Of a DNA stretch of 43,278 bases, positions 5,397-41,215 are shown one piece after another. The notes beneath the pieces were generated by a model. It searched no databases. It saw only the letters and a program-made list of their open reading frames with translations, and was not told the origin of the DNA. Origin of the DNA: Desulfobacterales bacterium (GTDB lineage: Bacteria; Desulfobacterota; Desulfobacteria; Desulfobacterales; JAAELO01); contig JAAELO010000508.1 in assembly GCA_024226555.1 (NCBI GenBank), positions 1 to 43,278 of the forward strand. Reading direction: 5' to 3'. Numbering within the stretch: position 1 is the stretch's first letter; each line of letters starts with the position of its first letter. The translations under genes and the position numbers were made by a program.

Positions 5397-5485
5397 AATT
5401 TCTCCATATAATCCTTAAGTTTAAAGTTTTTCTAACTCATGGGAAAAAACATTTTAATTTAATAAATAATACCATAAAACAATAG

Positions 5486-5855
5486 GGGAATCTCTAATAA
5501 TAAATTCAATAACAATAATATGGGAACCTCTAATAATTAAAATTTTTGATGAAAAACAAGGCATAACAAAAAACAACGGGTTGATTTTACTACAGTTTTA
5601 TTTTTGTTATATCTGTGTTTCGCAAAAAGATCAGTTATTAAGGTTCCCATATATGTTGACGAAACAACCCCTCAACATTTATCCATTATTAATGGTTAAA
5701 AAGATTATGTTTTTTTATAGGAAATCTCTCCTAAGTAACTCTTTTTGTTTTTATAGAGTTATTTATATGTTAGGTCTCGGTACCGGGAGATTCACTAACT
5801 AAAGCTTTTATAAACGTTGAATTTCAATAATAATTCTAATTATTAGAGATTCCTT
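5486..5855. mobile_element. Older repeat of the same family, split by copy C
   Basis: The left part (from GGGAATCTCTAATAATAAATTC at 5486, shown here as its first 20 or so bases) and the right part ending TAATTATTAGAGATTCC at 5853 are the two ends of one element. Its right half shares AAAGCTTTTATAAACGTTG with the long copy at 27731-27924. Copy C (5522-5648) sits inside it. ATAG occurs at 5482-5485 and 5856-5859 and may be its target duplication. The stretch 5653-5800 inside resembles no other copy clearly. Confidence 0.6.
5522..5648 (+). mobile_element. MITE-like repeat, copy C (variant type)
   Basis: 127-bp copy with left end GGGAACCTCTAATAATTAAA and right end CAGTTATTAAGGTTCCC. ATAT flanks it on both sides (5518-5521, 5649-5652), a clean 4-bp duplication. 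Its centre reads AAACAACGGGTTGATTTTAC where the common type has AATAACGAGCCGATTTTAT; copy H shares this variant. It interrupts an older family member. Confidence 0.82.
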
Positions 5856-5874
5856 ATAGCTATTGGAGGTAACA

Positions 5875-6756
5875 TTGAACCGTAACCGGATAGTCAAAAT
5901 TTCTATAATTCTCACATGTTTTTGCTTAATAGTATTTACTGGCTCATTTATCGCAGGATCGATACTAATTGACGCAGCCCCTGTCAAAATTGGTCCTCCC
6001 CCATCTGGCTCAAATCTTACGAATGTTAAATTCAAATCTAAGAATGGACAGGAAATTCGTGGTTGGTATGGTGAAGGACAATTAAACAATGGAGCAGTAA
6101 TTCTGATTCATGGAATTCGTAGTAATCGGTTACAGATGTTAAGTAGAACTCGTTTTCTTCAAGAGCAGGGTATTGCAGTTTTATTGTTTGATTTACAGGC
6201 TCATGGGGAAAGTGACGGAGAAAGAATATCATTTGGATATTATGAATCTCAATCAGCGGAAGCGGCTGTTCAATTTATGCGTAGTATATTACCAAAAGAG
6301 AAAATTGCAATCATAGGTGTCTCTTTAGGTGGTGCTGCCTGTTTGTTAGGTGAGAAACCGGTTTCAGCCGATATGTTAATAATAGAACAGGCCTATGCAT
6401 CTATTGAAGAAGCTGTTATTAATCGACTCACAATACGCCTTGGGCAGATAGGGCGCTATGTAGCACCGCTTTTATTATGTCAAATACCTCTAAGATTAGG
6501 TATTTCAAAAGAACAACTAAGGCCGGTTGAAGCTGTAAAGAAAGTTAAGTGCCCTATTTTTATAATTGGAGGTAGTGATGATCGAAGAACATTATCTAAT
6601 GAGACATTTCGTATCTATCATGAAGCTTCTGAACCAAAAGAACTCTGGATAGTTAAAGGAGGAAGGCATGTTGATATTTTTAATTATGCTGGTGCTGAAT
6701 ATAGAAAAAGGGTATTAGCTTTTATGATTAAATACAAACTTATAAAACAAGAATAA
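5875..6756 (+). CDS. Membrane-anchored alpha/beta hydrolase
   Basis: A 293-residue serine hydrolase. Residues about 7-30 (IVKISIILTCFCLIVFTGSF) form one N-terminal membrane segment or uncleaved signal anchor, so the enzyme domain probably faces the periplasm. The alpha/beta-hydrolase core follows: oxyanion motif ILIHGIRSNR, LLFDLQAHGESDGE, nucleophile elbow GVSLGG (Ser150), acid Asp236 in GGSDDRRT and His265 in GGRHVD. This is the BAAT/YfhR-type family of esterases and peptidases; the substrate is unknown. I chose TTG 5875 because GGAGG ends five bases earlier; the longer TTG start at 5863 would overlap that site. It stands alone between repeats and is probably monocistronic. Confidence 0.85.
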   Translation: MNRNRIVKISIILTCFCLIVFTGSFIAGSILIDAAPVKIGPPPSGSNLTNVKFKSKNGQEIRGWYGEGQLNNGAVILIHGIRSNRLQMLSRTRFLQEQGIAVLLFDLQAHGESDGERISFGYYESQSAEAAVQFMRSILPKEKIAIIGVSLGGAACLLGEKPVSADMLIIEQAYASIEEAVINRLTIRLGQIGRYVAPLLLCQIPLRLGISKEQLRPVEAVKKVKCPIFIIGGSDDRRTLSNETFRIYHEASEPKELWIVKGGRHVDIFNYAGAEYRKRVLAFMIKYKLIKQE

Positions 6757-6791
6757 CAGTTCCTGGATAACCTCTTAATTAACTCTCTTAT

Positions 6792-6921
6792 GGGAACCTC
6801 TAAATAATTAAAATTTTGGATGAAATACAAGGCATTTCAAAAAATAACGAGCCGATTTTATTACAGTTTTTTTTGGAAATAACAATGTATTTCGCCAAAA
6901 GAGAGGTTATTAGAGATTCCC
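6792..6921 (+). mobile_element. MITE-like palindromic repeat, copy D
   Basis: 130-bp copy of the common type, left end GGGAACCTCTAAATAATT, right end GGTTATTAGAGATTCCC. TTAT lies directly outside both ends (6788-6791, 6922-6925). It sits between convergent genes. Confidence 0.85.
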
Positions 6922-6999
6922 TTATGGCAAATGGACTAAAACGGATTTTGCATTTTCATAAAAGTTGGTTTAGCTTCGCTCAAAGACTTAAAAACCAAG

Positions 7000-7869
7000 T
7001 CAATGTTCATTGAGTAAATAATCATCATAAAATTTTGAAATTAACTTCATTTGACCTTTGTCATACATTAATTCCAGTTTACTTCGAAAATTTTTATCTG
7101 GTCGGATTTTTTTTAAAACTTCATTAATTCTAATGATTTTCTTTTTCCCCCATTCCGTTTTTGGGCATGCTACATAAACATAGAAGAAAAGAGAAGTTTC
7201 TTTTATTGGAACAGATCCTAATACTCTTTTATATTCAGGGAGGTATTGCTTTATTGCATGATTAATAACAAAAGGATATTCAATTATAAAGTCCATTCTT
7301 TTATGGGTTAACATCTTGATGGAACTTTTTTCACTAATTACGGATCTGGTTATATTTGAATCTTTTTCGTAGGTTTGCAAAATCTTATCAATATCTTTGG
7401 AGTATGATCTGTTCTCAATAAGTACTCCTTTTAATTCTTTATTTCTAATCAGGTCTACAAGGGATAATGACTTTGGGTTTTTAATTGTTTCTTTTCTCAT
7501 AATAATCTGATTTGGAAGAACCACAGTCATTGGAGTAGAAAATTCAGCAATTTTCTCTCTTTCGCTGTTTTTGTATACCATGCAGCTGCATATAGACAGT
7601 TCCTTTTTTAACCCCTTCCAAAATCTTTTCCAGTTCATGTCTATATTTAAATGCTCATATTCAGGTAAAACCGATTGGAGTAATAACAACTGTTCTCCAT
7701 ATTGTCCTCCGGTAATTTCATTATGTAATTTATCTAACTCCATAATGGGAGGCCAATGATTGATTAGCCAGGAAATTTTTTCTTTTGAAGAGCCTTCAGA
7801 GATATTGAACACTATGAGAAAAAATACCAAAAAGAAAATTAAAGGGTTAAATTTGCAAAACTCCTTCAC
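7000..7869 (-). CDS. Periplasmic solute-binding protein, family 3-like (TIGR02285-type), orphan
   Basis: A 289-residue exported protein: signal peptide at about 1-27 (FNPLIFFLVFFLIVFNISEG) and a type 2 periplasmic binding fold related to amino-acid binding proteins. WLINHWPPIMEL near the start and FIIEYPFVINHAI / PIKETSLFFYVYVACPKTEWG later resemble the TIGR02285 group of transporter-like sensory proteins. The GTG start is fixed by GGAGG six bases upstream (complement of 7876-7880). It is 122 bp from the hybrid kinase gene at 7992 on the same strand and follows it in transcription order, so kinase and binding protein may be co-transcribed. No permease is present, which favours a sensing role (inference). 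Confidence 0.75.
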   Translation of the reverse strand: MKEFCKFNPLIFFLVFFLIVFNISEGSSKEKISWLINHWPPIMELDKLHNEITGGQYGEQLLLLQSVLPEYEHLNIDMNWKRFWKGLKKELSICSCMVYKNSEREKIAEFSTPMTVVLPNQIIMRKETIKNPKSLSLVDLIRNKELKGVLIENRSYSKDIDKILQTYEKDSNITRSVISEKSSIKMLTHKRMDFIIEYPFVINHAIKQYLPEYKRVLGSVPIKETSLFFYVYVACPKTEWGKKKIIRINEVLKKIRPDKNFRSKLELMYDKGQMKLISKFYDDYLLNEH

Positions 7870-7991
7870 TGAAAACCTCCTTCATTTTATCTAAATTTTT
7901 TACAAAAGAATGTTTTGCAGTTTTATAGCACCAATATTTCCATCAATCAAATAGTCCTCACTATTTTCAGGGTTTTATTTGATTTTAATGA

Positions 7992-10379
7992 CTAAAAAAC
8001 ACTGATATCCCTGACAACGATGCCCTTCAAAGCGTTATTAATAGCTTCAGCAAATTCACTTGCCACCATAGGTTTCATAATAACAGACAAAACACCACTC
8101 TTTTTTAAAACTTCAGGAGTTAACTCTTCATTGAAACCTGTACAGAGAATGATTGGAATATCAGATCTTATATCGATCAATTTCATGGATAATTCAATTC
8201 CTGTCATCTCAGACATCGCCATATCCGTTATAACAAGATCGAATAGTTTAGAATTTTTTTTGAAAATATTAAGCGCTTCTTTACTGCTTGTCTTTCCTAC
8301 AACATCATATCCAAGGGCAATAAGTAACTGACGACACCAGTTAACAATTGGCTCTTCATCATCCACCAGAAGTATTTTACCTTTACCTTTAATTAGAATT
8401 GAGTTTGGCAAATATATATCTTTTGCACTTCCATGATGTTCTGGAAAAAAAACAGTAAAAGTTGTGCCCGTTTCGGGTTCACTATTAACAGAAATAGTCC
8501 CACCCATATTATTAATAATACCATATACTGTTGATAATCCTAATCCCGTACCTTCTCCCCGAGGCTTTGTGGTAAAAAAAGGTTCAAATATTTTTTCCAT
8601 ATCTTTTTTATCAATACCACATCCATTATCTGTAACAGCCAATTTTACATATTTTCCCTGCTTCAACTTTTCAGCTTCATCGCCCCTGATCTCCACCTTT
8701 TTAAGAGAGACATCAAGAACACCTCCTCTTTTTTTCATAGATTGAGTGGCATTTGTAAAAAGATTCATAACTATCTGCTGAACTTGAGATGAATCAGCCA
8801 GTACTTTACTTTCTGCAGCATCGAAATATTGCCTGATTTCAATATTTTTTGGTACTGTAGCACGGATGAAATTTAAACTTTCTTTGATAAGAGGAGATAT
8901 CTTTATTATACTTTTTTCCACATCGGCCTGGCGGCTGAATGTTAATATATGTCTTACCAGATCCCTTGCTCTGATCCCTGCTGCCAGAATCTGATCCACA
9001 TTTCTCTTTATTTTATCATCCCCATTTAACTTCAATTTTACCAGTTCTGCGAAACCAAAAACAGAGGAGAGAATATTATTAAAATCATGGGCGATTCCAC
9101 CCGCTAATGTGCCTATAGCCTCCATTTTCTGAGATTTTTGGAGTTGTGTTTCCAGCTGTTTACGCTCTGTTATATCCCGGGTGATTCCAAGTACCCTATC
9201 CGGTTTGTTATTTTTATCACGTAAAAAACTGGCAGTAACTTCAGTCCAGATTTCTGATCCATCCTTTCTTATCTGTTTTAACTCCAATATATTGTGCCTG
9301 TTATGATGAAAACCTTCTTTTTTCTCCCTCACCAGTTCAAGTGCTATCATGTCATATATTTTTTGTAAGGATTCTTCTTTAATAACGTTTTCCAATTCAA
9401 TTGATAACATCTCCTCAGCGCTATATCCAAGAATTCGTTCCACAGATGGGCTACTATAAGAAAGCTTTAGGTTTGCAAGTTGCAGAATCCAGATATTATC
9501 AGTGGCATTATCAGCAAGTAGTCTATATCTTTTTTCACTTTGTATAATAGTCTCCCGGGTTTGTTTTAACTTAGTAATATCTCTCAAATTGACAACCATG
9601 CCAATAACCTCACCGCTACTGTTTTTATGAGCAGCACCACTGATGCTTACATCAAGAATTTCTCCTTTTTTTGTATGTCTGCCAGTTTCAAAACCACTTA
9701 TGTACCCATCTCTAAAAACTGTATCGATAGCATCCCTGGTTTTTTCCCACTCACCATCCACAACAAAATGCTCTCTTATATCAACCATTTCTTCAAGAGA
9801 CCATCCAAATACTCTTGTAAATGCCGGGTTTAAGTACATTGCGCACATATCCATATTGTAAACAATAATAGGGTCAGGGACAGCTTTCATCACTGAGCGA
9901 TAGTCATCTTCCCGCTTCCGTAAAGCTTCATTTGTAGTAAGAAGCTCTCTGGTTTGGGTATCGACCTGCTTTTCAAGATTCTCCTGGAGATTTTTTACTG
10001 TTAGATGAAGGTCTATTCTGGATAACAGCTCTTCTGCTTCTATGGGTTTTGTGACATAATCAACAGCACCAATCTTAAACCCTTTAACCTTATTTTTTGT
10101 TTCTGCAAGTGCACTTAGAAAAATTACAGGAATAGTTCTGTTAGCCTCATCTTCTTTAAGACGTTTACAGGTTTCAAAACCATCCATTTCCGGCATAATA
10201 ATATCAAGTAAAATCAGGTCAGGAGGGGTTTTTCTGACAATTTCCAATGCGTTTTTCCCACTTTGGGCAACACTGACTTTAAACCCTTGTTCCCTCAGAA
10301 TTTTTCCAACCACCTGAATGTTTTTAAGTGTATCATCCACAACAAGGATACGACTATTATGTTTGTTGTAGTTTTTCAT
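7992..10379 (-). CDS. Soluble hybrid histidine kinase, REC-PAS-PAS-HisKA-HATPase-REC
   Basis: A 795-residue protein without membrane segments. Order: receiver 9-128 (ILVVDDTLKN, phospho-acceptor Asp59 in LILLDIIMPEMDG, Lys111), coiled coil about 130-160, PAS about 160-270 and PAS about 285-407 ending RDITERK, HisKA with His431 in GGIAHDFNN, ATPase domain with N-box NLFTNATQS, DNGCGID and GTGLGLS, and a second receiver 668-790 (Asp719 in DLVITDMAMSEM). A kinase with a receiver at the front is usually fed by another kinase; the membrane kinase encoded directly upstream (10424-13282) is the obvious donor. It has no output domain, so a further response regulator must lie elsewhere. Gap to the upstream gene is 44 bp, indicating an operon. 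Confidence 0.93.
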   Translation of the reverse strand: MKNYNKHNSRILVVDDTLKNIQVVGKILREQGFKVSVAQSGKNALEIVRKTPPDLILLDIIMPEMDGFETCKRLKEDEANRTIPVIFLSALAETKNKVKGFKIGAVDYVTKPIEAEELLSRIDLHLTVKNLQENLEKQVDTQTRELLTTNEALRKREDDYRSVMKAVPDPIIVYNMDMCAMYLNPAFTRVFGWSLEEMVDIREHFVVDGEWEKTRDAIDTVFRDGYISGFETGRHTKKGEILDVSISGAAHKNSSGEVIGMVVNLRDITKLKQTRETIIQSEKRYRLLADNATDNIWILQLANLKLSYSSPSVERILGYSAEEMLSIELENVIKEESLQKIYDMIALELVREKKEGFHHNRHNILELKQIRKDGSEIWTEVTASFLRDKNNKPDRVLGITRDITERKQLETQLQKSQKMEAIGTLAGGIAHDFNNILSSVFGFAELVKLKLNGDDKIKRNVDQILAAGIRARDLVRHILTFSRQADVEKSIIKISPLIKESLNFIRATVPKNIEIRQYFDAAESKVLADSSQVQQIVMNLFTNATQSMKKRGGVLDVSLKKVEIRGDEAEKLKQGKYVKLAVTDNGCGIDKKDMEKIFEPFFTTKPRGEGTGLGLSTVYGIINNMGGTISVNSEPETGTTFTVFFPEHHGSAKDIYLPNSILIKGKGKILLVDDEEPIVNWCRQLLIALGYDVVGKTSSKEALNIFKKNSKLFDLVITDMAMSEMTGIELSMKLIDIRSDIPIILCTGFNEELTPEVLKKSGVLSVIMKPMVASEFAEAINNALKGIVVRDISVF

Positions 10380-10423: not shown

Positions 10424-13282
10424 TTAATCAATAATATTCAAAAAATCATATAACAACTTTTTTATTTTTACCAAGTCAAACTGCAGAGCAGACAAATAAA
10501 GTTCATCTGCCCAATTAACAAGTGGTTTACAATGGTGCTCAGCCCCAATATTTTTCAACTCTTCAGCAAAGGTTTCAATTTCATCAATGGGCATTAATTC
10601 TGACAGAGCAGCGCAGTGTTCTTTTTGTTCACCTAAAAGATCAATAACTTCAGGGAATGGAGCGATTATATCGTATGAAATTTTTACTACATTTTCAGAC
10701 AGAGGCATGGTTTGATTATCACTTAACTCCTCTTTTGGAGTTGTATGGGGAAGGAATTTCATAATCTCTGAAATCAGCTTTGTTCTGGAAACAGGTTTTT
10801 TAATATAGCCATCACATAAAACCCGAATATTTTCCTCTTCCTGTTTCATAGCTGAGGCTGAGATAACAATGATTGGGATATTTTTTGTTGTATCATCCTT
10901 TTTAAGAATTTGTGAAGCTTCATAGCCATCCATCTCTGGCATTTTCATATCCAGAAGTAAAAGATCAGGAGGTGCATTCTTTACGATTTCAATAACCTGT
11001 TTTCCATTAACAGCTTCCTGAATCTTAAAATCATATTTTTCAAGGTAGACTCTTAAAAGTTGTCTGTTACATTCAATATCATCAGCAACAAGAATAGTAC
11101 TACTCTGGAATTGAACTGAAACCGGATCAATGCTTTTAGTATATACAGGCTCAGGTATATCTATAGTTGTGACTTCTACATCCCTGAACAAAATTAAAAA
11201 ATGGCTTCCCTTATTGGGTTCACTTTCAACCGAGATTTCTCCATTCATTATGTTAACAAGTTGTTTTGAAATGGCAAGGCCGAGTCCTGTTCCTCCAAAT
11301 GTCCCTTTTTTTACGGGTTGTAATTGTTCAAAAGAATCAAATATTTTATCTTTTTCAGTTTCCTCCATTCCTATTCCAGTATCTAATACGGATATTGATA
11401 GATCCAGGCAGTTATCCTCTTTAGCATCAACATACTCATATTTAACTGATAGAGTTATACTTCCTTTTTCAGTGAATTTTATTGCGTTACTGATTAAGTT
11501 CACCATAATCTGACGAACCCTGGTTTCATCAAGAAGTATTGTTTTTGGTAAATCAATTGGAATATCGATAATAAAATCTATACCTTTGTCATCTATTATC
11601 TGCTTAAATAAAATTTCCATCTCAGTGAAAAGATCTTTAATACTTAACTCTGTATATTCAATCTCAATTTTACCAGCTTCAACTTTGGAAAGATCAAGAA
11701 TATCATTGATTAGAGAAAGAAGAGATTTACCACTGGTGTGGATAGATTCAAGGTAATAGGATAAATTGGGATTATCAATTTTGTCTTTTAAAATCTCTGT
11801 AAAACCTAATACAGAGTTCATTGGTGTTCGGATTTCATGGGACATATTTGCCAAAAATTCACTTTTTGCCTTATTTGCGATCTCAGCCTTTTCTTTTGAA
11901 AGGAGTAGTTCTTTATTGGCCGTTTCAAGATCATTTGTACGTTCAAGTACACGTTGTTCGAGTTTATCATGGGCATCCTGCAGGGCATCCAGTAGTTTTT
12001 CCTTTTCACTAATGGATTTACTGATAGAGTGGAATGACTTGTTCAGAATTTTTCCAAGAGCTTTTGTTTCAATTGTCCCCGTAATTGGTATTTTAGTGGT
12101 AGAGATACCGGAAGCTTCAATCTCTTCTGCTGAAAACATGAGTTTGCGAAGGGGGTTCGTTAGAGTTTTGGAAAGAAGTATTGATAAAAAAATCGAACCA
12201 ACGAGGAAAAATATGGACATATAAAAAAATTTTTGTAACAACACTCTAGATGTTTTCTCAATTTCATCCACATAAACGGAACTTGCTATATACCAGCCCA
12301 GGGGCTTGAAATGTCTAATATAAGCCCTTTTATAAAATTTGTATTCGCCCTTGTGTTTTGGTGGTTTGTCCCAGATATACTCGTACGCTTTATCCGGGGT
12401 TTTGGAAGCATTAATAAGATCATCTAAAAGATGGTTCCCGGTTGAAAGATTTATTAATGAGCTACCATCGGTTCCTCCGAAAACAGGATGAATAAGAATC
12501 TGTTTTTTTTTATTGAAAATAAACATATACCCGCTTCTTGCCAGTTTTACCTTGGTAAATGTGTCCTGTAGCTCTAAAATTATAGCATTAAGCCTTTTAC
12601 GGGAGTCAGCTTCAATATCATCTATATAAACACCGGTTCCAATCACCCAATTCCATTTTTTATATAAAGCCACATAGGATATTTTCGGCTGATCAGCAGT
12701 AAGTCCATCTTTAGCGGGTTTTGGCCATAGATAGTCCACATATCCCTGTCCTTTTTCCCGACAAACATCTGCAAAGGCCAGCAAAAGATTCTTTTTGATA
12801 CCAAGGGCGCAATTATATTTTGGATCATCAAGTATTGTCCCATCCAGTTCAGGTATGGCCGGGTGCATAAGCATTCTAGGAATTGGTCTTTTCATATCAT
12901 TGATCCATAAATATCCAACCCCCTGATCATAACGCATTATTTTGATGATACTCATAGCTTTAGACTTTGCCTGATTTTCTGTGAGAATACCCTTCTTGAA
13001 TTTCTTATAAATCTCATCAATTATGGCAATTGCAATAATAATAATATTCTTTCGTTCAGATTTTCTTATCTCAAGGGCATTTTTTTTATGGAAAAGAAGA
13101 CTTTCATATTCATTCTCAACATTTAACATTACAGTATTCAACATGTTTTTCGAATTTTCATCATGGAGCCTTGAAAGGGTACTCATAGTCTCTCTTTGAA
13201 TGAAAAAGATAGTGCATAAAACAGTAAGAATCACTATAGATACTACTATCAATAATACTCTGGATCTCAGGGATTTAAACAT
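10424..13282 (-). CDS. Membrane hybrid histidine kinase, double Cache-HAMP-HisKA-HATPase-REC
   Basis: A 952-residue sensor kinase. Membrane helix at about 8-28; extracytoplasmic region about 30-350 with two single-Cache-type modules ([20 protein letters not shown] near 121-140 and [18 protein letters not shown] near 249-266); second helix about 353-371; HAMP about 372-425; coiled coil; HisKA with His482 in [13 protein letters not shown]; ATPase motifs [17 protein letters not shown] and [10 protein letters not shown]; receiver about 728-845 with Asp778 in [13 protein letters not shown]; a helical tail about 850-952 lacking an HPt-type HXXKG motif. Cache modules bind small organic ligands directly. 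AGAGG lies four bases before the ATG. Likely first gene of an operon with the soluble hybrid kinase and perhaps the binding protein at 7000. Confidence 0.93.
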
Positions 13283-14165
13283 TAAACCTCTTCTAAATTC
13301 AGATTTTATTCAGTGACCATAGGATTTAAAGTGCTGATTTCATAAATAAATTAAGTTGATTTTAAAATTCATTGTATATTGATAGAGACAGGCTTGTCAA
13401 TGTAATTTCAGTTGTACGAAATCGGAACACCCTTGTTTAACAGCATTACACGCTATTTTGCACTGCATAAATTTTGCTATAGAGACAGAACCTCTAATAA
13501 GTCAAAATGAATTATGAATACTATCTTCATTTTTCGAATAAGATGCCCAACTTTAAGAACATTGTTACATATTTACAATAGCAGAAAAGCGTTGAATATA
13601 TTACATATATTGATTTTAATCTAACTGATTCAGGATGGCTGAATTTAGTTTTACTGGGTCATCATTCATTATATTGAAACACTTTGTACTGATTAAACAA
13701 AATTTAATATATTTGCAATTATCTCAAAATTAACCCTCTACACCTATTTTCAATAAATCTTAAAAAGACAAATAACGTGGAGTAGACCTGTTTTTTTAGA
13801 ATATTTTACAAGCTTTAGTGAAAAAAAATATTTGCCTGATCGAATATTATTATGAATCAATTTATTTTGTTAATTTAATATGTTATCAAATGCACATTAT
13901 AAATGTACAAAAGATAACAAAAATATACAGTTGAAAAATAAATTTAAAAGCATATAAAAAGCTTGTATGGCAGGTATCTTCAAATTCGTAATAAATTAAC
14001 GTTTAATTAAGTAACTTAAGAATATGTCAATAAATGCATTTTTTGCTTGCTACATTGTGGTATTATTGTAAATAAATGAATATTGATTCATTTTCATTTT
14101 TGCTATATATTAAATTTTTTTACTGATTCATTCAGATTTTAGGTAAATTGAAGTTAGGAGTTGAA
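13283..14165. other. Long AT-rich intergenic region between divergent operons
   Basis: 883 bp with no credible gene. It must hold the promoters of the kinase operon (minus strand) and of the cytochrome b/Fe-S/MetV cluster (plus strand). GAACCTCTAATAAG at 13488-13501 looks like a decayed end of the GGGAACC repeat family. I see no tRNA, strong terminator or clear regulatory RNA. Confidence 0.5.
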
Positions 14166-14840
14166 GTGGTTGATTTTATTACAGGTCCTATGGTTTGGAT
14201 CTCATGTTTGTTCTTTTTAGTTGGAACTATCTATCAGGTATATTCCATAAGAAAACTTACAAGAAAGGTTCAGAAAGCGGATAAGAAAAAAGTTGTTCCT
14301 GAAAAAACCGATTTTATAACAAAAGATTCTTTGAGCTTCAAAATCAGAATGCTTAAATACTCTTTTGTAGGCATACACCGGGAAAAAATAGCCCTGTCTA
14401 TTCTCTTCCATATGCTTATTATATTTACGCCACTTTTAGTTCCTGCGCATAACATACTTTTGAAACAATCTTTTGGTTTTTCATTATTATCATTACCTGA
14501 ATCTTTAATAGATTTAACTACTATATTAGTCATATTGTGCTTTGTAGTTTTTTTACTCAGACGGATTTTTGTTGAGAGAGTAAGAGCCATATCATCCTTT
14601 TCTGATTATGCTATTCTTATTATTGCAGCAGCTCCTTTTGTAACAGGTTTTTTATCCTGCCAGCAGTTTTTTGATCCAAGAACAATCTATCTGATTCATA
14701 TTTTAACTGGTGAAATTATGTTAATTGCACTTCCACTAACGAAGCTTGTTCATATGGTTTTCTTCTTTTTTGGACCTTTAATATCTATTCATAAACAAAC
14801 ATTTGGAAACGGAAAAGAGATCTTAAGATCTGAGGGTTAA
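14166..14840 (+). CDS. Cytochrome-b-like membrane subunit (NarI/DsrM/HdrE superfamily)
   Basis: A 224-residue protein with five membrane segments, at about 4-22, 78-100, 116-138, 148-166 and 178-205. Paired histidines inside or next to segments (SILFHMLIIF, VPAHN, LIHILTG and KLVHMVFF) are the pattern of the b-haem quinone-reactive subunits of nitrate reductase (NarI), DsrM, TmcC and QmoC. It would exchange electrons between menaquinone and a cytoplasmic Fe-S partner. The next gene, one base after its stop, encodes exactly such a partner. I prefer GTG 14166, preceded by AGGAG at 14156-14160, to the TTG at 14148, which overlaps that site. No separate haem-binding CXXCH motif is present. Confidence 0.8.
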   Translation: MVDFITGPMVWISCLFFLVGTIYQVYSIRKLTRKVQKADKKKVVPEKTDFITKDSLSFKIRMLKYSFVGIHREKIALSILFHMLIIFTPLLVPAHNILLKQSFGFSLLSLPESLIDLTTILVILCFVVFLLRRIFVERVRAISSFSDYAILIIAAAPFVTGFLSCQQFFDPRTIYLIHILTGEIMLIALPLTKLVHMVFFFFGPLISIHKQTFGNGKEILRSEG

Positions 14841-14841
14841 T

Positions 14842-15246
14842 ATGGAAAGAGTAGTAAATAGTAAAGAGATAAAAAGTATTCTGGATGAACACAAAGATAA
14901 GATGAAGCTTATGCTTAAAGTTTGTGTAAGATGCACCTTTTGCGCAGAAACCTGCTTTTTGTACAGAAGCAGAGAGCAAAATCCAAAGTATATGCCATCA
15001 ATGAAAATTATTAATTCAATTGGTAAGCTCTATAAGAAAAAAGGAAAAGTAAAGTTCGAAGAACTTGAAAAAATGAGAGAAATTGTTTTTCACGATTGTG
15101 TTCTATGTACAAGATGTAGTTGTCCCATGGGAATAAATATTCCGGAGATGATTGCACTTGCACGAAGAGTTTTAAGATCACAGGGGATTTACTACTCATA
15201 TGATAAAGAACCACATTCAATAGCCACAAGCAATACGGAGATATAA
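14842..15246 (+). CDS. Double 4Fe-4S protein, HdrC/QmoC-N-like
   Basis: A 134-residue cytoplasmic protein with two cluster motifs: Cys28-X2-Cys31-X2-Cys34-X3-Cys38 (CVRCTFCAETC) and Cys86-X2-Cys89-X2-Cys92-X-Cys94-Pro (CVLCTRCSCP). The spacing of about 48 residues between them, followed by the helical NIPEMIALARR, is that of HdrC and of the N-terminal part of QmoC/DsrK. The second motif is one residue-pair shorter than the standard CX2CX2CX3CP, so its fourth ligand is atypical. It starts one base after the cytochrome gene and ends three bases before the MetV gene; the three are surely one transcript. It probably wires MetV to the membrane subunit. Confidence 0.83.
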   Translation: MERVVNSKEIKSILDEHKDKMKLMLKVCVRCTFCAETCFLYRSREQNPKYMPSMKIINSIGKLYKKKGKVKFEELEKMREIVFHDCVLCTRCSCPMGINIPEMIALARRVLRSQGIYYSYDKEPHSIATSNTEI

Positions 15247-15249
15247 GTT

Positions 15250-15900
15250 ATGATTAAAATTCAACCAAAACCAATTGAAGAGATTACAGATATTGCAGGA
15301 TCTTATAAAAAGATTCTTATTGTTGGCTGTGGAGGATGCGCATCAGTTTGCCTTGGTGGAGGACAACCTGAGGTAGACAAGTTAACTGAGATTTTGAATC
15401 TCAATTTCGAAGAAAAAAATGCTCCAAACAGAGCTAAAGGTTGTACAATTGAAAGACAATGTAACAAAGCCTTTATTGAAGAGTTAGAAAACAAGGTGCC
15501 GGAATATGATTGTGTTTTTTCCATGGCTTGTGGAGCAGGCGCCCAGTATATAGCTGAAGTGTTTCCAGGAACACCGGTTTTTCCAGCTGTAAATACTGTT
15601 TCAATAGGTATTGATAGAGAGATTGGGGTTTATGAAGAAAGATGCAGAGCATGCGGAGAGTGTGTTTTGAGCTATACTGGTGGAATATGTCCTGTTACCC
15701 GTTGTGCCAAAGGGCTTTTTAATGGTCCATGTGGTGGAACAAACCGTGATGAATGCGAAATTGGAAGAGGGATACCATGTGCTTGGTTAGCTATATATAA
15801 TCGCCTTAAAGAGCAGAACAGATTGGATGATATCCATAAACTCAGAGCTCCAATGGAGTGGCAAAACCAAACACTTAGAACATTAGTACAGGAATTCTAA
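15250..15900 (+). CDS. metV: MetV-type methylene-tetrahydrofolate reductase C-terminal-domain protein
   Basis: A 216-residue Cys-rich protein of the MTHFR C-terminal domain family, whose named member MetV is the partner of the methylene-THF reductase MetF in acetogens and sulfate reducers using the Wood-Ljungdahl pathway. Visible features: VGCGGCASVCLGGG near residue 25, GCTIERQC near 64, ACGAGAQYIAEVFPGTPVFPA, and the closing block ERCRACGECVL, GICPVTRCAKGLFNGPCGG, which is highly typical of the family. It binds Fe-S and possibly zinc. MetF itself is not next to it. Its neighbours are a cytochrome-b-like and an Fe-S protein, so it may link C1 reduction to the quinone pool (inference). Symbol given by family resemblance. 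Confidence 0.82.
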   Translation: MIKIQPKPIEEITDIAGSYKKILIVGCGGCASVCLGGGQPEVDKLTEILNLNFEEKNAPNRAKGCTIERQCNKAFIEELENKVPEYDCVFSMACGAGAQYIAEVFPGTPVFPAVNTVSIGIDREIGVYEERCRACGECVLSYTGGICPVTRCAKGLFNGPCGGTNRDECEIGRGIPCAWLAIYNRLKEQNRLDDIHKLRAPMEWQNQTLRTLVQEF

Positions 15901-15918
15901 TTTCTATTTTAATATATA

Positions 15919-15978
15919 GGGATTCTCTAAAAATCAGGCTTTTGAGGTCGCTCAAAAGACAGTTTTTAAGAGATTCCC
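15919..15978. repeat. Inverted repeat between convergent genes, probable terminator or mini-repeat
   Basis: GGGATTCTCTAAAAA (15919-) pairs with TTTTTAAGAGATTCCC (ending 15978), and the centre CTTTTGAGGTCGCTCAAAAG forms a perfect 7-bp stem. The ends resemble those of the GGGAAYCTCTAATAA repeats, so it may be a shortened family member. It separates the converging metV and AOR genes, where it would act as a terminator in both directions. Confidence 0.6.
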
Positions 15979-16007
15979 TTAAGTATACAATTTTATTTTT
16001 CAAAAAA

Positions 16008-17750
16008 TCACCAGCCGCGAATTTTTTTATAGTTCTCAAATAATTCATTGAAATAATCAGGATCTAAAACCTTACCCGAGTCTTCAAGTTTCCGATAAAA
16101 AATATTTGGTAGTTTCTCATCAGATTCTGTCATTCCCTCGCGAAGATTAAACGACCTTACTTTATCGGAAATATTTTTTGCTATATCGGTAAGATTCTCT
16201 TTTGAGCCATCAAGCCCTGTTGATGCTGTTATAAGTGTTTCCAAAAGCTCCCACGGATATAAATCTCTGAAAAAACGACAAAGAATAAAGGTATCAAAAA
16301 TTGTTAGTCTGTCTTCAAAGTCGATAAACATTTCAGCTTTTCCATCTATCTGGTCAGGATCTATCATACCGGCAAGTTCAGGTTTATAGAATGTAGACCT
16401 TAAGTGACAGGCGCCTCTGTCTGATGTTGCATAGGAAAGGGCCATACCTTTAAGAACTCTTGGGTCATAACCAGCTGGTTCCATTCCTTTTACATGTACA
16501 GCGTCATCAACCATATTCCACTCTTTTGCAGCTTTTTTAATACCTTTTGCAAGTATTTCTCCTACCCCCTCTTTTTTAGAGATATGTTTTAAAAGCTCTG
16601 CTGTTTTATCTGCATCACCAAAAGTTATTTTAAAGCCTGATTTACCAGTTTCGTACGCCTTCATTGCAAATGCACAAAGATTTCCTGCTGTAATGGTATC
16701 CATCCCAAGGCTATCACAAATATTATTTAAATATGCGATCTCCTCAATGGAGGAGATCATACATAATCCACCGAAAGCAAAAATAGTTTCATATTCAGGG
16801 CCCTCTATAACAAGTCCTTTATGCCTCCCCTTTAATATTTTTGTCATACGACCACATGATAAGTAACACTTTGCACATGCATGGGGTTTTACCTCACACC
16901 TCTTATGCAGCGCATCTGAACTAATTTTTTCCCAATGAGCAGCTTTTCCCTTTGACCAATATTTCGTAGGAAAAGCACCTGCGTTGTTCATGGTCTTAAC
17001 CATCTGTGAAGTACCCATGGATTTGTAGGCATTAGCTACAGGATTGTCTTTTGCTTCTTTAGCAAGATCTTTTGATAGTTCCAAAAGCCCTTTAGGATCA
17101 TACACTTCTCTTTTTTTATCTCCTGAAAATATAATCCCTTTAATATTTTTTGACCCCAATACAGTTCCGGTTCCAGCTCTGCCTGCACATCTCCATCCAT
17201 CATTTTTGATTATAGAAAATGCTACTCCATTTTCCCCAGCAGGCCCTATAACAACAGAACCTTTTTTCCAGTTTTTCTTCTTTCTACCTAAACATCTCTT
17301 TTTTATATAAACTTCGGTTTCAAACGTATCCTTACCTTTAAGATTTTCTGCATCATGGAATAAAACACCAGCAGGAGTAACTTCAATTATTTTCAGACCA
17401 TTTGCTTTTCCTTTAATAATAATAGCATCAAACCCTGTTGCACTAACTGCCTCAGGAACTCTTCCACCAGAATAGGATTCAGCATACAAACCTGTTAGTG
17501 GAGATTTGGTAAACACACCATACCTTGAAGCACCCCAGGTTGTACCACCAGTGACAGACCCGGTTGCAAAAATAAGATGGTTCTCTGAAGATAAAGGGTC
17601 AACACCTTCAGGGTTTCGCTCATAAAGTAACCATGTGGCAAGTCCTTTTCCACCAAGATACCTTTTCAGAATATCATCCGGGATCTTCTCAATCTTAAAA
17701 CTTATTTCAGATAAATTAATTGTTATAATCAGATTATAAAATCCATGCAT
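16008..17750 (-). CDS. Tungsten-dependent aldehyde:ferredoxin oxidoreductase
   Basis: A 580-residue enzyme of the AOR family, oxidising aldehydes to carboxylic acids (or the reverse) with ferredoxin, using a tungstopterin and one 4Fe-4S cluster. The N-terminal domain has YLGGKGLATWLLYE and FATGSVTGGTTWGASRYGVF, the pterin-binding signatures. Cluster ligands are Cys292, Cys295 and Cys299 in ACAKCYLSCGR, with Cys491 in FILCRFFRD as the fourth. GNLCAF and DRGACHLRS are further family landmarks. Length is close to usual (about 600). GGAG lies upstream of ATG 17750. Convergent with the metV cluster; the MTA/SAH nucleosidase gene lies 117 bp upstream on the same strand. Its true substrate cannot be read from sequence. 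Confidence 0.93.
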   Translation of the reverse strand: MHGFYNLIITINLSEISFKIEKIPDDILKRYLGGKGLATWLLYERNPEGVDPLSSENHLIFATGSVTGGTTWGASRYGVFTKSPLTGLYAESYSGGRVPEAVSATGFDAIIIKGKANGLKIIEVTPAGVLFHDAENLKGKDTFETEVYIKKRCLGRKKKNWKKGSVVIGPAGENGVAFSIIKNDGWRCAGRAGTGTVLGSKNIKGIIFSGDKKREVYDPKGLLELSKDLAKEAKDNPVANAYKSMGTSQMVKTMNNAGAFPTKYWSKGKAAHWEKISSDALHKRCEVKPHACAKCYLSCGRMTKILKGRHKGLVIEGPEYETIFAFGGLCMISSIEEIAYLNNICDSLGMDTITAGNLCAFAMKAYETGKSGFKITFGDADKTAELLKHISKKEGVGEILAKGIKKAAKEWNMVDDAVHVKGMEPAGYDPRVLKGMALSYATSDRGACHLRSTFYKPELAGMIDPDQIDGKAEMFIDFEDRLTIFDTFILCRFFRDLYPWELLETLITASTGLDGSKENLTDIAKNISDKVRSFNLREGMTESDEKLPNIFYRKLEDSGKVLDPDYFNELFENYKKIRGW

Positions 17751-26494: not shown

Positions 26495-27058
26495 CTACCT
26501 CTTCTTCTTAAGCCATTCTTCAACAGATGTATTTTCTAAATTATCAATAATTTCATCAGTCTCTTTTCTGAACAATTCAAGATCTTTTTCATCCTGTTTT
26601 TGCTTCCGAAGATTGTCAATCTGTGCCTTCATTTGATTGAATTCAATATGACCAATTGCCATTTCTTTTTTTTCACGAATTTTATGAAGCTCTCTTGCGC
26701 AGAAGTAAAACCCTATTATTGCTGAAAGTACGTACCACATTTTTTCAGGTACTGTAGAAAGTCCCAGATTCAGGACCTGGAACTCTTCAGGATTTACATA
26801 TGACAGAATAAAATATGCTACAATTAATACCACAAAAAGTGGTCGAGGCATCCTGTTTATACCATCCCAAAATGAGTCCCATAAAGTTCTGTTATTTCTA
26901 TTATGAAATTCTGAACTAAAACTATTTTGAGTGTTCACATATTCATTATGTTTATAACGATCTCTTTCTTTCTCACTTCCTGTAAATGTCTGAACAACAC
27001 TGTTTACACCCTCTGCAACAGATTTCACAGTTTTTCCAAATATATCGAATCCAAACAT
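26495..27058 (-). CDS. Holin, GTA/3TM-type
   Basis: A 187-residue membrane protein of the kind described as holin of 3TMs for gene-transfer-agent release. After an amphipathic N-terminus (KTVKSVAEGVNSVV), the family landmark WDSFWDGINRMPRPLFVVLI leads into a first clear membrane segment (about 73-88); PEEFQVLNLGLSTVPEKMWY leads into the second (about 106-121), ending in the typical YFCARELHKIR. A charged coiled coil fills 125-187, longer than usual. The start is ATG 27058, seven bases after GGAGG; GTG 27061 is in frame but too close. It overlaps the end region of the endolysin gene, forming a two-gene lysis unit. No phage structural gene is present in the window. Confidence 0.8.
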   Translation of the reverse strand: MFGFDIFGKTVKSVAEGVNSVVQTFTGSEKERDRYKHNEYVNTQNSFSSEFHNRNNRTLWDSFWDGINRMPRPLFVVLIVAYFILSYVNPEEFQVLNLGLSTVPEKMWYVLSAIIGFYFCARELHKIREKKEMAIGHIEFNQMKAQIDNLRKQKQDEKDLELFRKETDEIIDNLENTSVEEWLKKKR

Positions 27059-27060
27059 CA

Positions 27061-27603
27061 CTACACCTCCTTTCGGAAAGACTCAGCCCTTGCAAGCCAT
27101 CCCTTAATAAACACTTCTTGTGTTTTGTCATTAATAACTATTTTTTTGTAAAAATTTATTCTTTCATCTACTATTGCATTATTAAAATAAGTACGCATCT
27201 CATCATCAGCTTTGAATGCTGCAACTCTGGTTTTTGAGCCAATAATTCCATCTACAACTGTGGAACCAAACCCTGCTTTATTAATTACAGATTGCACAAA
27301 TTTAACAGCTCGCTTTGGACCATGATTTATTGATGAATCAAAAACTATAGGTTGAATTTCAAAAGGAAGTTCATTTATTGATGGTATATAATAATAATTC
27401 TGTCTGTATATACCTTTTGCTGTTTCAACTTTCAGATTTCTCACATCAGAAACAGTTGCGTGTCTTCCAAACCATCCAGAAAGAGTTTTTTGAGTAATTC
27501 CATAGTTTGTGGGGCCTCCTCTGTCATTCTTATGGTCAACAAATCCTCCCTCTTTTTTTAAAACCTCATCAATCATTTTTTCTATTTGTTTAAAATTTGT
27601 CAT
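27061..27603 (-). CDS. GH108-type endolysin (lysozyme, ZliS-like)
   Basis: A 180-residue muramidase-like enzyme. The catalytic motif KEGGFVDHKNDRGGPTNYGI near residues 17-36 contains the Glu and the Asp-Arg-Gly-Gly-Pro-Thr-Asn-Tyr-Gly-Ile signature of glycoside hydrolase 108. The C-terminal part (INHGPKRAVKFVQSVI, VDGIIGSKTRVAAF, FIKGWLARAESF) is the associated peptidoglycan-binding domain. No signal peptide is seen, so export depends on the holin encoded immediately downstream. GGTGG lies four bases before the ATG. The pair would cut the cell wall from inside and lyse the cell. Flanked by repeat copies I and H, with no other phage genes. Confidence 0.92.
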   Translation of the reverse strand: MTNFKQIEKMIDEVLKKEGGFVDHKNDRGGPTNYGITQKTLSGWFGRHATVSDVRNLKVETAKGIYRQNYYYIPSINELPFEIQPIVFDSSINHGPKRAVKFVQSVINKAGFGSTVVDGIIGSKTRVAAFKADDEMRTYFNNAIVDERINFYKKIVINDKTQEVFIKGWLARAESFRKEV

Positions 27604-40144: not shown

Positions 40145-41215
40145 TTAAACAGAAACAGAAATATGGCCTTTGGAATTATCACTTTTTACCTCTCCCACAA
40201 TTGACGCTGCTACACCTTCATTCAAAAGAGTTTCAAGGCATTTGCCAGCCTCTTCCTCTGGGACTGAAAACAACAATCCTCCTGATGTTTGGGGATCGAA
40301 TATGATATCTGTGTGTGCTCTTGAAACGTTGCCATCTATTTTGATATTATCTTTACAGTACTCTCTTGTTTTGTAACTTCCCGCAGGAATCAAACCCATA
40401 TTTGCATATTCAATGGCGCCTTCAATAATTTTCATGTCTTTAAGATAGAGCTTGATCTCTTTTCCAGACCCCATTGCCATCTCAAGGGCATGCCCGGCAA
40501 GGCCAAACCCTGTAATATCTGTACAGGCTGATGTTTTAAACTTCATCATAATTTCTGCAGCAACTTTATTCAGACCTGCGGAAATCTTTACAAGGTTTTT
40601 AATATCTGACTCACTTGCTATCTTACCTTTAATAGCGGTAGCAATTATGCCTGTTCCAATTGGCTTTGTCAGAATCAGCTGATCTCCAACATTTGCAGAG
40701 CAATTCTTTATAACTTTGTCAGGATGGATCAGGCCTGTTACTGAAAGACCATACTTAAATTCAAGGTCGTCAACACTGTGCCCTCCCGCAAGCACAGCTC
40801 CGGATTCCTCTATTTTCGAAAGACCTCCTGCAAGAGTCTCTTTAAGAACATCCTCATGCATCTCTTCAGTTGGAAAACAAACAATATTCATCGCTGTTAC
40901 CGGTTTTCCTCCCATTGAATAAACATCACTTAAGGAGTTGGCTGCTGCAATCTGCCCAAACTCATAGGGAGAATCGGTGACAGGTGTTAAAAAATCCAGT
41001 GTTTGTATCAAAGCAGTATCGCTGCTAATTTTAAAAACCCCTGCATCATCGGCATTTTCATACCCAACAATAAGATCAGGATGTTTTTTTTGTTTAAGCG
41101 AACCTATAATTCTTCCCAGGACCCCTGGTTCAATTTTAGCCGCTCAGCCTGAAGCTCTGACTTTTTGAGTAAGAGCCGGATGCAATTCTACTTTTTTATT
41201 ATCTTTATCACTCAT
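40145..41215 (-). CDS. selD: Selenide, water dikinase SelD, a selenoprotein (UGA = Sec24)
   Basis: The full gene starts at ATG 41215 and contains an in-frame TGA at 41146-41144, so it appears truncated if read with normal stops. With selenocysteine the 356-residue product begins MSDKDNKKVELHPALTQK, and residues 20-31 are RASGUAAKIEPG: the SelD active site, where Cys or Sec is followed by the essential Lys27. Beyond it DDAGVFKISSDTALIQTLDF, FGQIAAANSLSDVYSMGG, GGHSVDD and DPQTSGGLL are all SelD motifs. The enzyme makes selenophosphate from selenide and ATP. AAGGAA lies six bases before the ATG, three bases after the pgeF stop. Last gene of the comF-nit-pgeF-selD operon; the internal TTG at 41011 is not the real start. 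Confidence 0.93.
41116..41128 (-). promoter_or_regulatory. Candidate bacterial SECIS hairpin in selD
   Basis: On the coding strand CCAGG-GGT-CCTGG is a perfect 5-bp stem with a G-rich loop, beginning 15 bases after the Sec UGA. Bacterial SECIS elements are small hairpins with a G-containing apical loop at about this distance and recruit SelB with Sec-tRNA. The position and fold fit; SelB binding itself is not shown. Confidence 0.65.

Follow-up and report, generated by a model that had tools for sequence, protein, structure and literature searches.

A cytochrome b, Fe-S protein and MetV triplet from Desulfobacterales as the probable membrane arm of a Tmc/Hmc-derived MetFV methylene-tetrahydrofolate reductase

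We have analyzed a 43,278-nucleotide stretch of DNA, referred to below as the window (C507:1-43278), from the draft genome of a Desulfobacterales bacterium (7.69 Mb in 904 contigs, 98% complete), and in it a triplet of genes for a membrane cytochrome b, a small Fe-S protein and a MetV protein (Table 1). On the grounds of sequence comparison, we consider it probable that the triplet encodes the membrane arm of a MetFV methylene-tetrahydrofolate (methylene-THF) reductase that derives from the Tmc and Hmc complexes and links methyl-THF to cytochrome c or to the menaquinone pool. With similar confidence, we take the copy in the window for a pared-down version of a membrane-bound kind of MetFV methylene-THF reductase that is widespread and apparently has not been described before; the genes for this form are called the cassette below. 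The first-pass annotation, made from the letters of the window, had described three adjacent genes, spaced by one and then three bases, with no metF alongside. Both points hold: the frames are intact on the plus strand (stop codons at 14838-14840, 15244-15246 and 15898-15900; ATG starts of the Fe-S and MetV genes at 14842 and 15250), and none of the six MetF hits in the genome lies on contig C507. The longest open reading frame (ORF) of the cytochrome b begins with TTG at 14148, the likelier predicted start being GTG 14166, which matches the starts of aligned relatives.

Table 1. The three-gene unit and the adjoining hairpin, in positions of the window (aa, amino acids)
Feature	Position	Strand	Description
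Cytochrome b	14166-14840	+	TmcC/HmcE-type, 224 aa from GTG
Fe-S protein	14842-15246	+	2x[4Fe-4S] ferredoxin-like, 134 aa
MetV	15250-15900	+	216 aa, PF12225, cassette type
Terminator-like hairpin, bidirectional	15918-15979	both strands	-27.8 kcal/mol, z -5.3

In comparisons with NCBIfam, the cytochrome b scored best with TmcC (NF045723, 2.5e-45) and HmcE (NF045716, 4.7e-40), far ahead of QmoC (0.00023), DsrM (0.018) and NarI (0.045), with all five matches under the curated cut-offs of the models (for TmcC, 154.7 bits against 240); we regard the protein as a probable relative of TmcC/HmcE and not as a certified TmcC member. It had initially been described as a NarI/DsrM-like membrane subunit, of which the membrane cytochrome b stands and the nearest homologue does not. 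PF02665 was narrowly missed (22.8 bits, cut-off 22.9), and in a Foldseek search with a weak AlphaFold model (pLDDT 62) the top eight PDB matches were all NarI, at E values of 0.03-0.12. His 82, 95, 178 and 196 do not vary in a six-row alignment; the matching residues are conserved without exception in 84 cassette homologues, as well as in the TmcC- and HmcE-like proteins of the window's genome, and the four would be suited to binding two haems.

The Fe-S protein matched TmcB (NF045724, 4.2e-25, positions 23-139 of 430) and HmcF (3.3e-24), both under cut-off, and covers roughly the first 150 of the 430-457 model positions. Since a protein of this length with an N-terminal match has no room for CCG domains, it appears to correspond to the N-terminal ferredoxin part of TmcB/HmcF without these domains. 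The earlier description as HdrC/QmoC-N-like was right about a small Fe-S protein and has to be corrected as to its nearest homologue, the TmcB/HmcF N-terminus; right, too, was the shortened second cluster motif, CX2CX2CXCP, which reads CVLCTRCSCP. This motif is found in 85 of 87 census Fe-S ORFs, the window's included (see below; the two exceptions, L136 and L155, keep CX2CX2CXC and lack the P), and the TmcB and HmcF-like protein of the window's genome have CX2CX2CX3CP, two residues longer, suggesting that the shortening by two residues is typical of the cassette Fe-S family. When the Fe-S protein was modelled with AlphaFold (pLDDT 72), nothing in the PDB matched it meaningfully, and PDB sequence searches with all three triplet proteins gave no relevant hit. 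The MetV protein matches its family at 2.8e-35 and has kept the conserved MetV cysteines.

The distribution of the cassette was surveyed with a profile of six Fe-S proteins in 291 genomes of the order and 395 of the phylum Desulfobacterota. MetV alone did not discriminate as a query, being present in 273 of the 291 order genomes, and the Fe-S protein separated the family; in the MetV and Fe-S searches of the order, only each genome's 10-14 best first-look candidates were scored. Fifty-nine order genomes were positive, set off by a clear score gap: 57 matches span 103-215 aa and score 154-226 bits, one is fused to TmcC (G099, 158 bits) and one is a cut copy (G268, 137.5 bits), while the other order matches listed reach at most 142 bits and are mostly TmcB/HmcF-type frames of 250-550 aa. 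The phylum scan yielded 38 matches at E <= 1e-38. Frames of at most 183 aa account for 33 of them, 29 lying outside the order; five longer frames from outside the order (446-506 aa) are not among the 88 loci of the resulting census (58 order loci, the window and 29 loci outside the order). Genes were called with custom profiles, and a run was defined as genes on the same strand with gaps of less than 400 bases. MetV is in the run at 83, TmcC at 83, cytochrome c at 73 and MetF at 55 of the 88 loci; the respective numbers are 56, 55, 48 and 28 for the order (n = 59), and 27, 28, 25 and 27 outside it (n = 29). Some misses arose because the contig breaks off or the cytochrome is read in a different frame (L101, L106, L160), and an apparent MetV-cytochrome fusion in L101/L106 was discarded, the cytochrome being in another frame and the MetV ORF over-extended. 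Recurrence at 88 loci makes chance adjacency untenable, and the variable gene order (for instance cytc-MetV-TmcC-FeS-MetF or MetF-TmcC-FeS-cytc-MetV) likewise makes a chance neighbourhood unlikely.

The 73 cytochromes carry four CXXCH motifs in 64 cases, 16 or 17 in seven, five in one and two in one (cut); when aligned with the TmcA encoded in the window's genome, seven of the four-haem proteins reach 34-39%. An Hmc-type cassette with a 16- or 17-haem cytochrome was noted at L155, L156, L158, L169-L171, L173 and L175, several of them near genes for carbon monoxide dehydrogenase/acetyl-CoA synthase (CODH/ACS). Two comparator loci outside the census, L150 and L151, combine TmcC with a TmcB-like protein of 250-270 aa and a tetrahaem cytochrome, with no MetV in the stretch, and look like a short Tmc-like complex; L011-L016 also lie outside the census, three of them being the same contigs as L093, L094 and L149. 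At nine loci (L093, L096, L098, L112, L113, L115, L119, L123 and L126), MetF is followed by two same-strand genes of about 490-540 aa, read by eye in L093 and L096 as a PAS sensor and a response regulator, which would possibly provide dedicated regulation of the cassette.

The link to C1 metabolism is most evident at L155, where a single run holds genes for the CODH catalytic subunit (a fragment, 341 bits against a cut-off of 478), ACS alpha/beta (1069/800), the gamma subunit of the corrinoid iron-sulfur protein CFeSP (608/306), a methyltransferase (209/259), TmcC (195.7/240), the Fe-S protein, MetV, MetF (PF02219, 4e-40), HmcA (409/400) and HmcB-like (341/420) and HmcC-like (252/550) subunits. 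In tblastn searches with the L155 proteins over the fetched stretches (4.1-18 kb), CODH/ACS-type genes were found near the cassette at 13 of the 88 loci, all 13 outside the order, and near none of 11 soluble MetFV loci (stretches of 5.4-8.5 kb). Together with the MetF counts, this means that the triplet does keep company with C1 genes elsewhere, the lack of which the first-pass annotation had named as evidence against its proposal. MetF was hit in all 59 cassette genomes and CdhC in 54, the latter only weakly in three (G204, G226, G250). In five of the 59 (G001, G051, G056, G075, G200) the cassette's MetV is the only one found, its placement in G051 being inferred; CODH/ACS is present in four of these (not G051) and formate-THF ligase (FTHFS) in G001, G051, G075 and G200, with none found in G056. 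The sole MetF hit of G051 is the cassette's, and G075 has no MetF beside the cassette. These five genomes are 80-96% complete, so that absence there is not proof.

In phylogenetic analyses, cassette TmcCs form one clade (support 99) against four TmcC/HmcE-type rows, in a tree that omitted TmcCs of up to 190 aa and L147, where TmcC and the Fe-S protein are fused in a single 365-aa protein. The window MetV clusters with three Desulfamplus-type triplet MetVs (SH-aLRT 98) within a 53-row cassette group (94), and HdrA-linked MetVs, including the copy on contig C336 of the window's genome, form their own 12-row clade (support 100); the MetVs on C701 and C593 of the same genome stand apart on long branches. 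Here, L147 and MetVs below 180 aa were left out, and in both trees over-extended N-termini were trimmed. The free MetV tree places nine Hmc-type cassette MetVs with soluble ones (89), though several origins of cassette MetVs need not be assumed, a single cassette clade not being rejected (p-AU 0.66). In the window's lineage (window, L011, L012 and L092, of which L012 is cut upstream at a contig end) neither cytochrome nor MetF is found, and no open frame above 60 aa anywhere in the window has a CXXCH motif, so that no TmcA-like tetrahaem cytochrome c is encoded with the triplet. Since the other 13 rows of the 17-row MetV group to which this lineage belongs (support only 80) have cytochrome c in 13 of 13 (two in another frame) and MetF in nine of 13 cases, the simplest reading is that both genes were lost in the window's lineage. 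Cassettes without cytochrome in the fetched stretch were also seen at L122 and L132 (genus g85), while the other four rows of their six-row clade have one; the loss may thus have occurred more than once.

With the Tmc complex (TmcABCD), the cassette shares a TmcC-type cytochrome b, a TmcB-type ferredoxin domain and, in most cassette relatives, a TmcA-like tetrahaem cytochrome c. It differs in lacking the CCG domains and having MetV, often with MetF, instead, in the shorter second cluster motif and in its separate TmcC clade; TmcD was not seen in cassettes, no search for it having been made. Loci of the L155 type add the 16-haem HmcA, HmcB- and HmcC-like subunits of the Hmc complex, but have the short Fe-S protein, MetV and MetF in place of HmcF, beside CODH/ACS genes, whereas the window unit holds only the HmcE-like and HmcF-N-like subunits of the HmcA-HmcF set. 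The MetV and MetF families are common to the cassette and the soluble enzymes (MetFV-RnfC2 in Acetobacterium, MetFV-HdrABC-MvhD in Moorella), but where these have RnfC2 or HdrABC/MvhD as electron partner, the cassette encodes a membrane arm with cytochrome b. An electron chain in the membrane, with cytochrome b as a carrier, was once proposed for the methylene-THF reductase of acetogens; the genomes gave no membrane evidence and the enzyme was then viewed as soluble (PMC8578096). In Thermacetogenium phaeum, methyl-THF oxidation with a quinone analogue was found in soluble and membrane fractions, with MetFV encoded alongside Hdr genes and an enzyme without transmembrane helices (PMC6895022), while the cassette encodes a membrane subunit. 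Partners of anaerobic methanotrophic archaea have Tmc without TmcA as well as MetF-HdrABC (PMC10553843), and D. autotrophicum has two TmcBCA clusters (PMC2702500). Among the titles, abstracts and passages accessible in the literature searched, which covers few subscription journals, none describes a MetFV linked to Tmc or Hmc.

Desulfococcus multivorans (G010) deserves particular mention. Its cassette lies at 2.377-2.379 Mb and its QrcD at 3.90 Mb, matching the 2.38 Mbp reported for tmcA2B2C2, which shares 27-35% identity with Tmc of D. vulgaris, and the 3.91 Mbp reported for Qrc in the genome paper (PMC5109826), so that the 'Tmc2' of this strain appears to be the cassette. According to the same source, the membrane fraction contained most constituents of both Tmc complexes, in rather small amounts, whichever of the 17 substrates was used. 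TmcA1 and TmcB2 escaped detection, and all Wood-Ljungdahl enzymes but FdhH were seen under every condition; the terms MetF and MetV are absent from the accessible text of the paper.

Several observations weigh against a membrane-bound MetFV reductase. The cassette is optional, 232 of the 291 order genomes having no Fe-S match, and MetF is missing from the run at 33 of the 88 loci, some of them at contig ends; the initial characterization of the cluster as being without MetF is therefore accurate for the window's lineage and, by the run rule, for these 33 loci, and does not describe the family as a whole. CODH/ACS genes were near none of the 59 order loci in the tblastn searches, and L180 has TmcC and the Fe-S protein near CODH/ACS with no MetV. 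TmcB2 of the D. multivorans paper (50 kDa, undetected; PMC5109826) does not match the 127-aa protein of the cassette in that strain. A genome-wide search for a cassette-type cytochrome in the window's genome returned only TmcA, which was part of the query, an HmcA-like protein and weak matches. Furthermore, MetV-MetF sets do exist elsewhere in this genome, which is the first of the two findings that the first-pass annotation had named as counting against its proposal. There are three (C336, C593, C701), and positions 35.4-56.3 kb of C701 comprise a soluble MetV-MetF pair (35.4-37.0 kb), a second MetF-like gene, CODH/ACS (48.4 kb) and FTHFS (54.6 kb). This soluble set, and not the triplet, is likely the main pathway enzyme of this organism, and the presence of CODH/ACS and FTHFS on its contig has somewhat lowered our confidence in the membrane arm and made the alternatives slightly likelier. 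Finally, MetF trees (MetFs of up to 240 aa omitted) interleave cassette and soluble copies, and the C336 MetF groups with four cassette MetFs (82), being 87% identical to that of L093. Such mixing suggests that MetF is shared, whereas MetV would be the part matched to the electron partner. As a separate observation, C593, C432 and C380 have TmcB-profile matches in Hdr-like regions with one TGA each, perhaps a selenocysteine or a gene boundary.

The transcription unit most likely comprises the three genes only, in view of the 883-base gap upstream, beyond which an opposite-strand gene lies (10424-13282, a sensor kinase by eye), and of the downstream hairpin followed by a convergent aldehyde:ferredoxin oxidoreductase (AOR) gene (16008-17750, minus strand; PF01314/PF02730 matches). 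A terminator scan detected the stem 15939-15958 on both strands; a promoter scan gave 11 hits in the real sequence against 13.6 in shuffles, i.e., no excess.

Within a membrane-bound MetFV reductase, MetV would occupy the place of the CCG domains of the Tmc complex, and electrons would pass between the MetF flavin, the MetV clusters, the two [4Fe-4S] clusters and the two b haems, and from there to a periplasmic cytochrome c and on to Qrc and menaquinone, or to menaquinone directly; the cassette cytochrome c is presumed to be periplasmic from its kinship to TmcA. The initial proposal of a quinone-linked methylene-THF reductase is thus retained in its membrane link, in line with the MetF and CODH/ACS neighbours of the relatives, with quinone as one option for the partner: kinship to TmcC/HmcE and TmcB/HmcF suggests cytochrome c at least as much. 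Taking about -200 mV for methyl-THF (PMC6895022) and -74 mV for menaquinone (PMC8578096), outward flow would release about 24 kJ per mol of electron pairs, part of it conservable by Qrc, an electrogenic cytochrome c3:menaquinone oxidoreductase (PMC13059093). QrcD is near-universal in the order (259 of 291 genomes, the window's included; 56 of 59 with and 203 of 232 without the cassette) and hence uninformative as a co-occurrence signal. In complete oxidisers the outward direction would be likely, with methyl-THF oxidised and electrons delivered to menaquinone; since D. multivorans is without periplasmic hydrogenases and formate dehydrogenases (PMC5109826), we favour flow from methyl-THF via cytochrome c to Qrc there. 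With H2, the system could run inward. The window triplet, as an accessory to the soluble sets, would have to bind a MetF encoded elsewhere in the genome, and its electrons would go to menaquinone or to a shared cytochrome such as TmcA. Loss of the cytochrome may have made the unit of this lineage a direct methyl-THF:menaquinone oxidoreductase.

Among the alternatives, we regard as unlikely, though as the most resilient, that the MetV-like subunit is a general electron adaptor for another cytoplasmic enzyme (benzoyl-CoA reductase-like, a CoA-transferase or AOR), MetF being unrelated in the window. The window and Desulfamplus copies indeed have no MetF beside the triplet, and the genome already possesses soluble MetFV sets for the pathway. 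Moreover, in L014 (Desulfosarcina cetonica) the cassette is followed at 5432-9786 by genes that we take to resemble benzoyl-CoA reductase/2-hydroxyacyl-CoA dehydratase subunits and two activases, and in L011 the unit is followed by a 671-aa gene, presumably CoA-transferase-like. These neighbours were, however, each seen once, without a systematic search, compared with the far more frequent MetF and CODH/ACS genes; relatives of the window's MetV group outside its own lineage mostly retain MetF and all retain cytochrome c, the MetV cysteines are conserved, and the AOR gene is convergent and separated by the hairpin. An ordinary second Tmc complex reducing DsrC, which has been proposed as a Tmc partner (PMC4215793), with MetV as an incidental neighbour, is distinctly improbable: the subunits are homologous to TmcA, TmcB and TmcC and the D. 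multivorans locus is annotated as Tmc2, but MetV is in the run at nearly all loci and in several gene orders, and the window's genome has a complete Tmc besides (a 449-aa TmcB with 787 bits and a four-haem TmcA with 146 bits, both above cut-off, and a TmcC-like neighbour), which along with Hmc-like parts also present makes the triplet an additional set. That the window copy is a decaying remnant, about to disappear after losing cytochrome c and MetF, we consider very improbable: two subunits are absent, its terminal TmcC branch is long (1.65) and a soluble set stands beside CODH/ACS, but the three frames are intact and tightly spaced with conserved Cys and His kept, the Desulfamplus-type L011 and L092, with full flanks, show the same reduced intact set (L012 being cut), and L122 and L132 are further cytochrome-less examples.

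Two observations on the window concern other genes. A selD-like gene with AIRS domains (40145-41215, minus strand) reads through an in-frame TGA at codon 24, the ORF having been called from a late start at 41011, and likely encodes a selenocysteine-containing selenophosphate synthetase. A lysis-like pair at 26495-27603 (minus strand) combines a GH108 lysozyme (PF05838) with a holin of the gene-transfer-agent type with three transmembrane segments (PF11351).

It has long been asked how cells couple methylene-THF reductase to energy conservation. In the cassette, which occurs across many Desulfobacterota, a membrane cytochrome b and a multihaem cytochrome c are encoded together with MetV, often with MetF and sometimes next to CODH/ACS genes. 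It is accessible to experiment, since D. multivorans, which is in culture and has been sequenced, appears to be one of its carriers. If a membrane-bound MetFV reductase is indeed what the cassette encodes, it would provide a route for methyl-THF electrons in complete-oxidising sulfate reducers, and possibly a source of electrons for Qrc where strains lack a hydrogenase or formate dehydrogenase in the periplasm.

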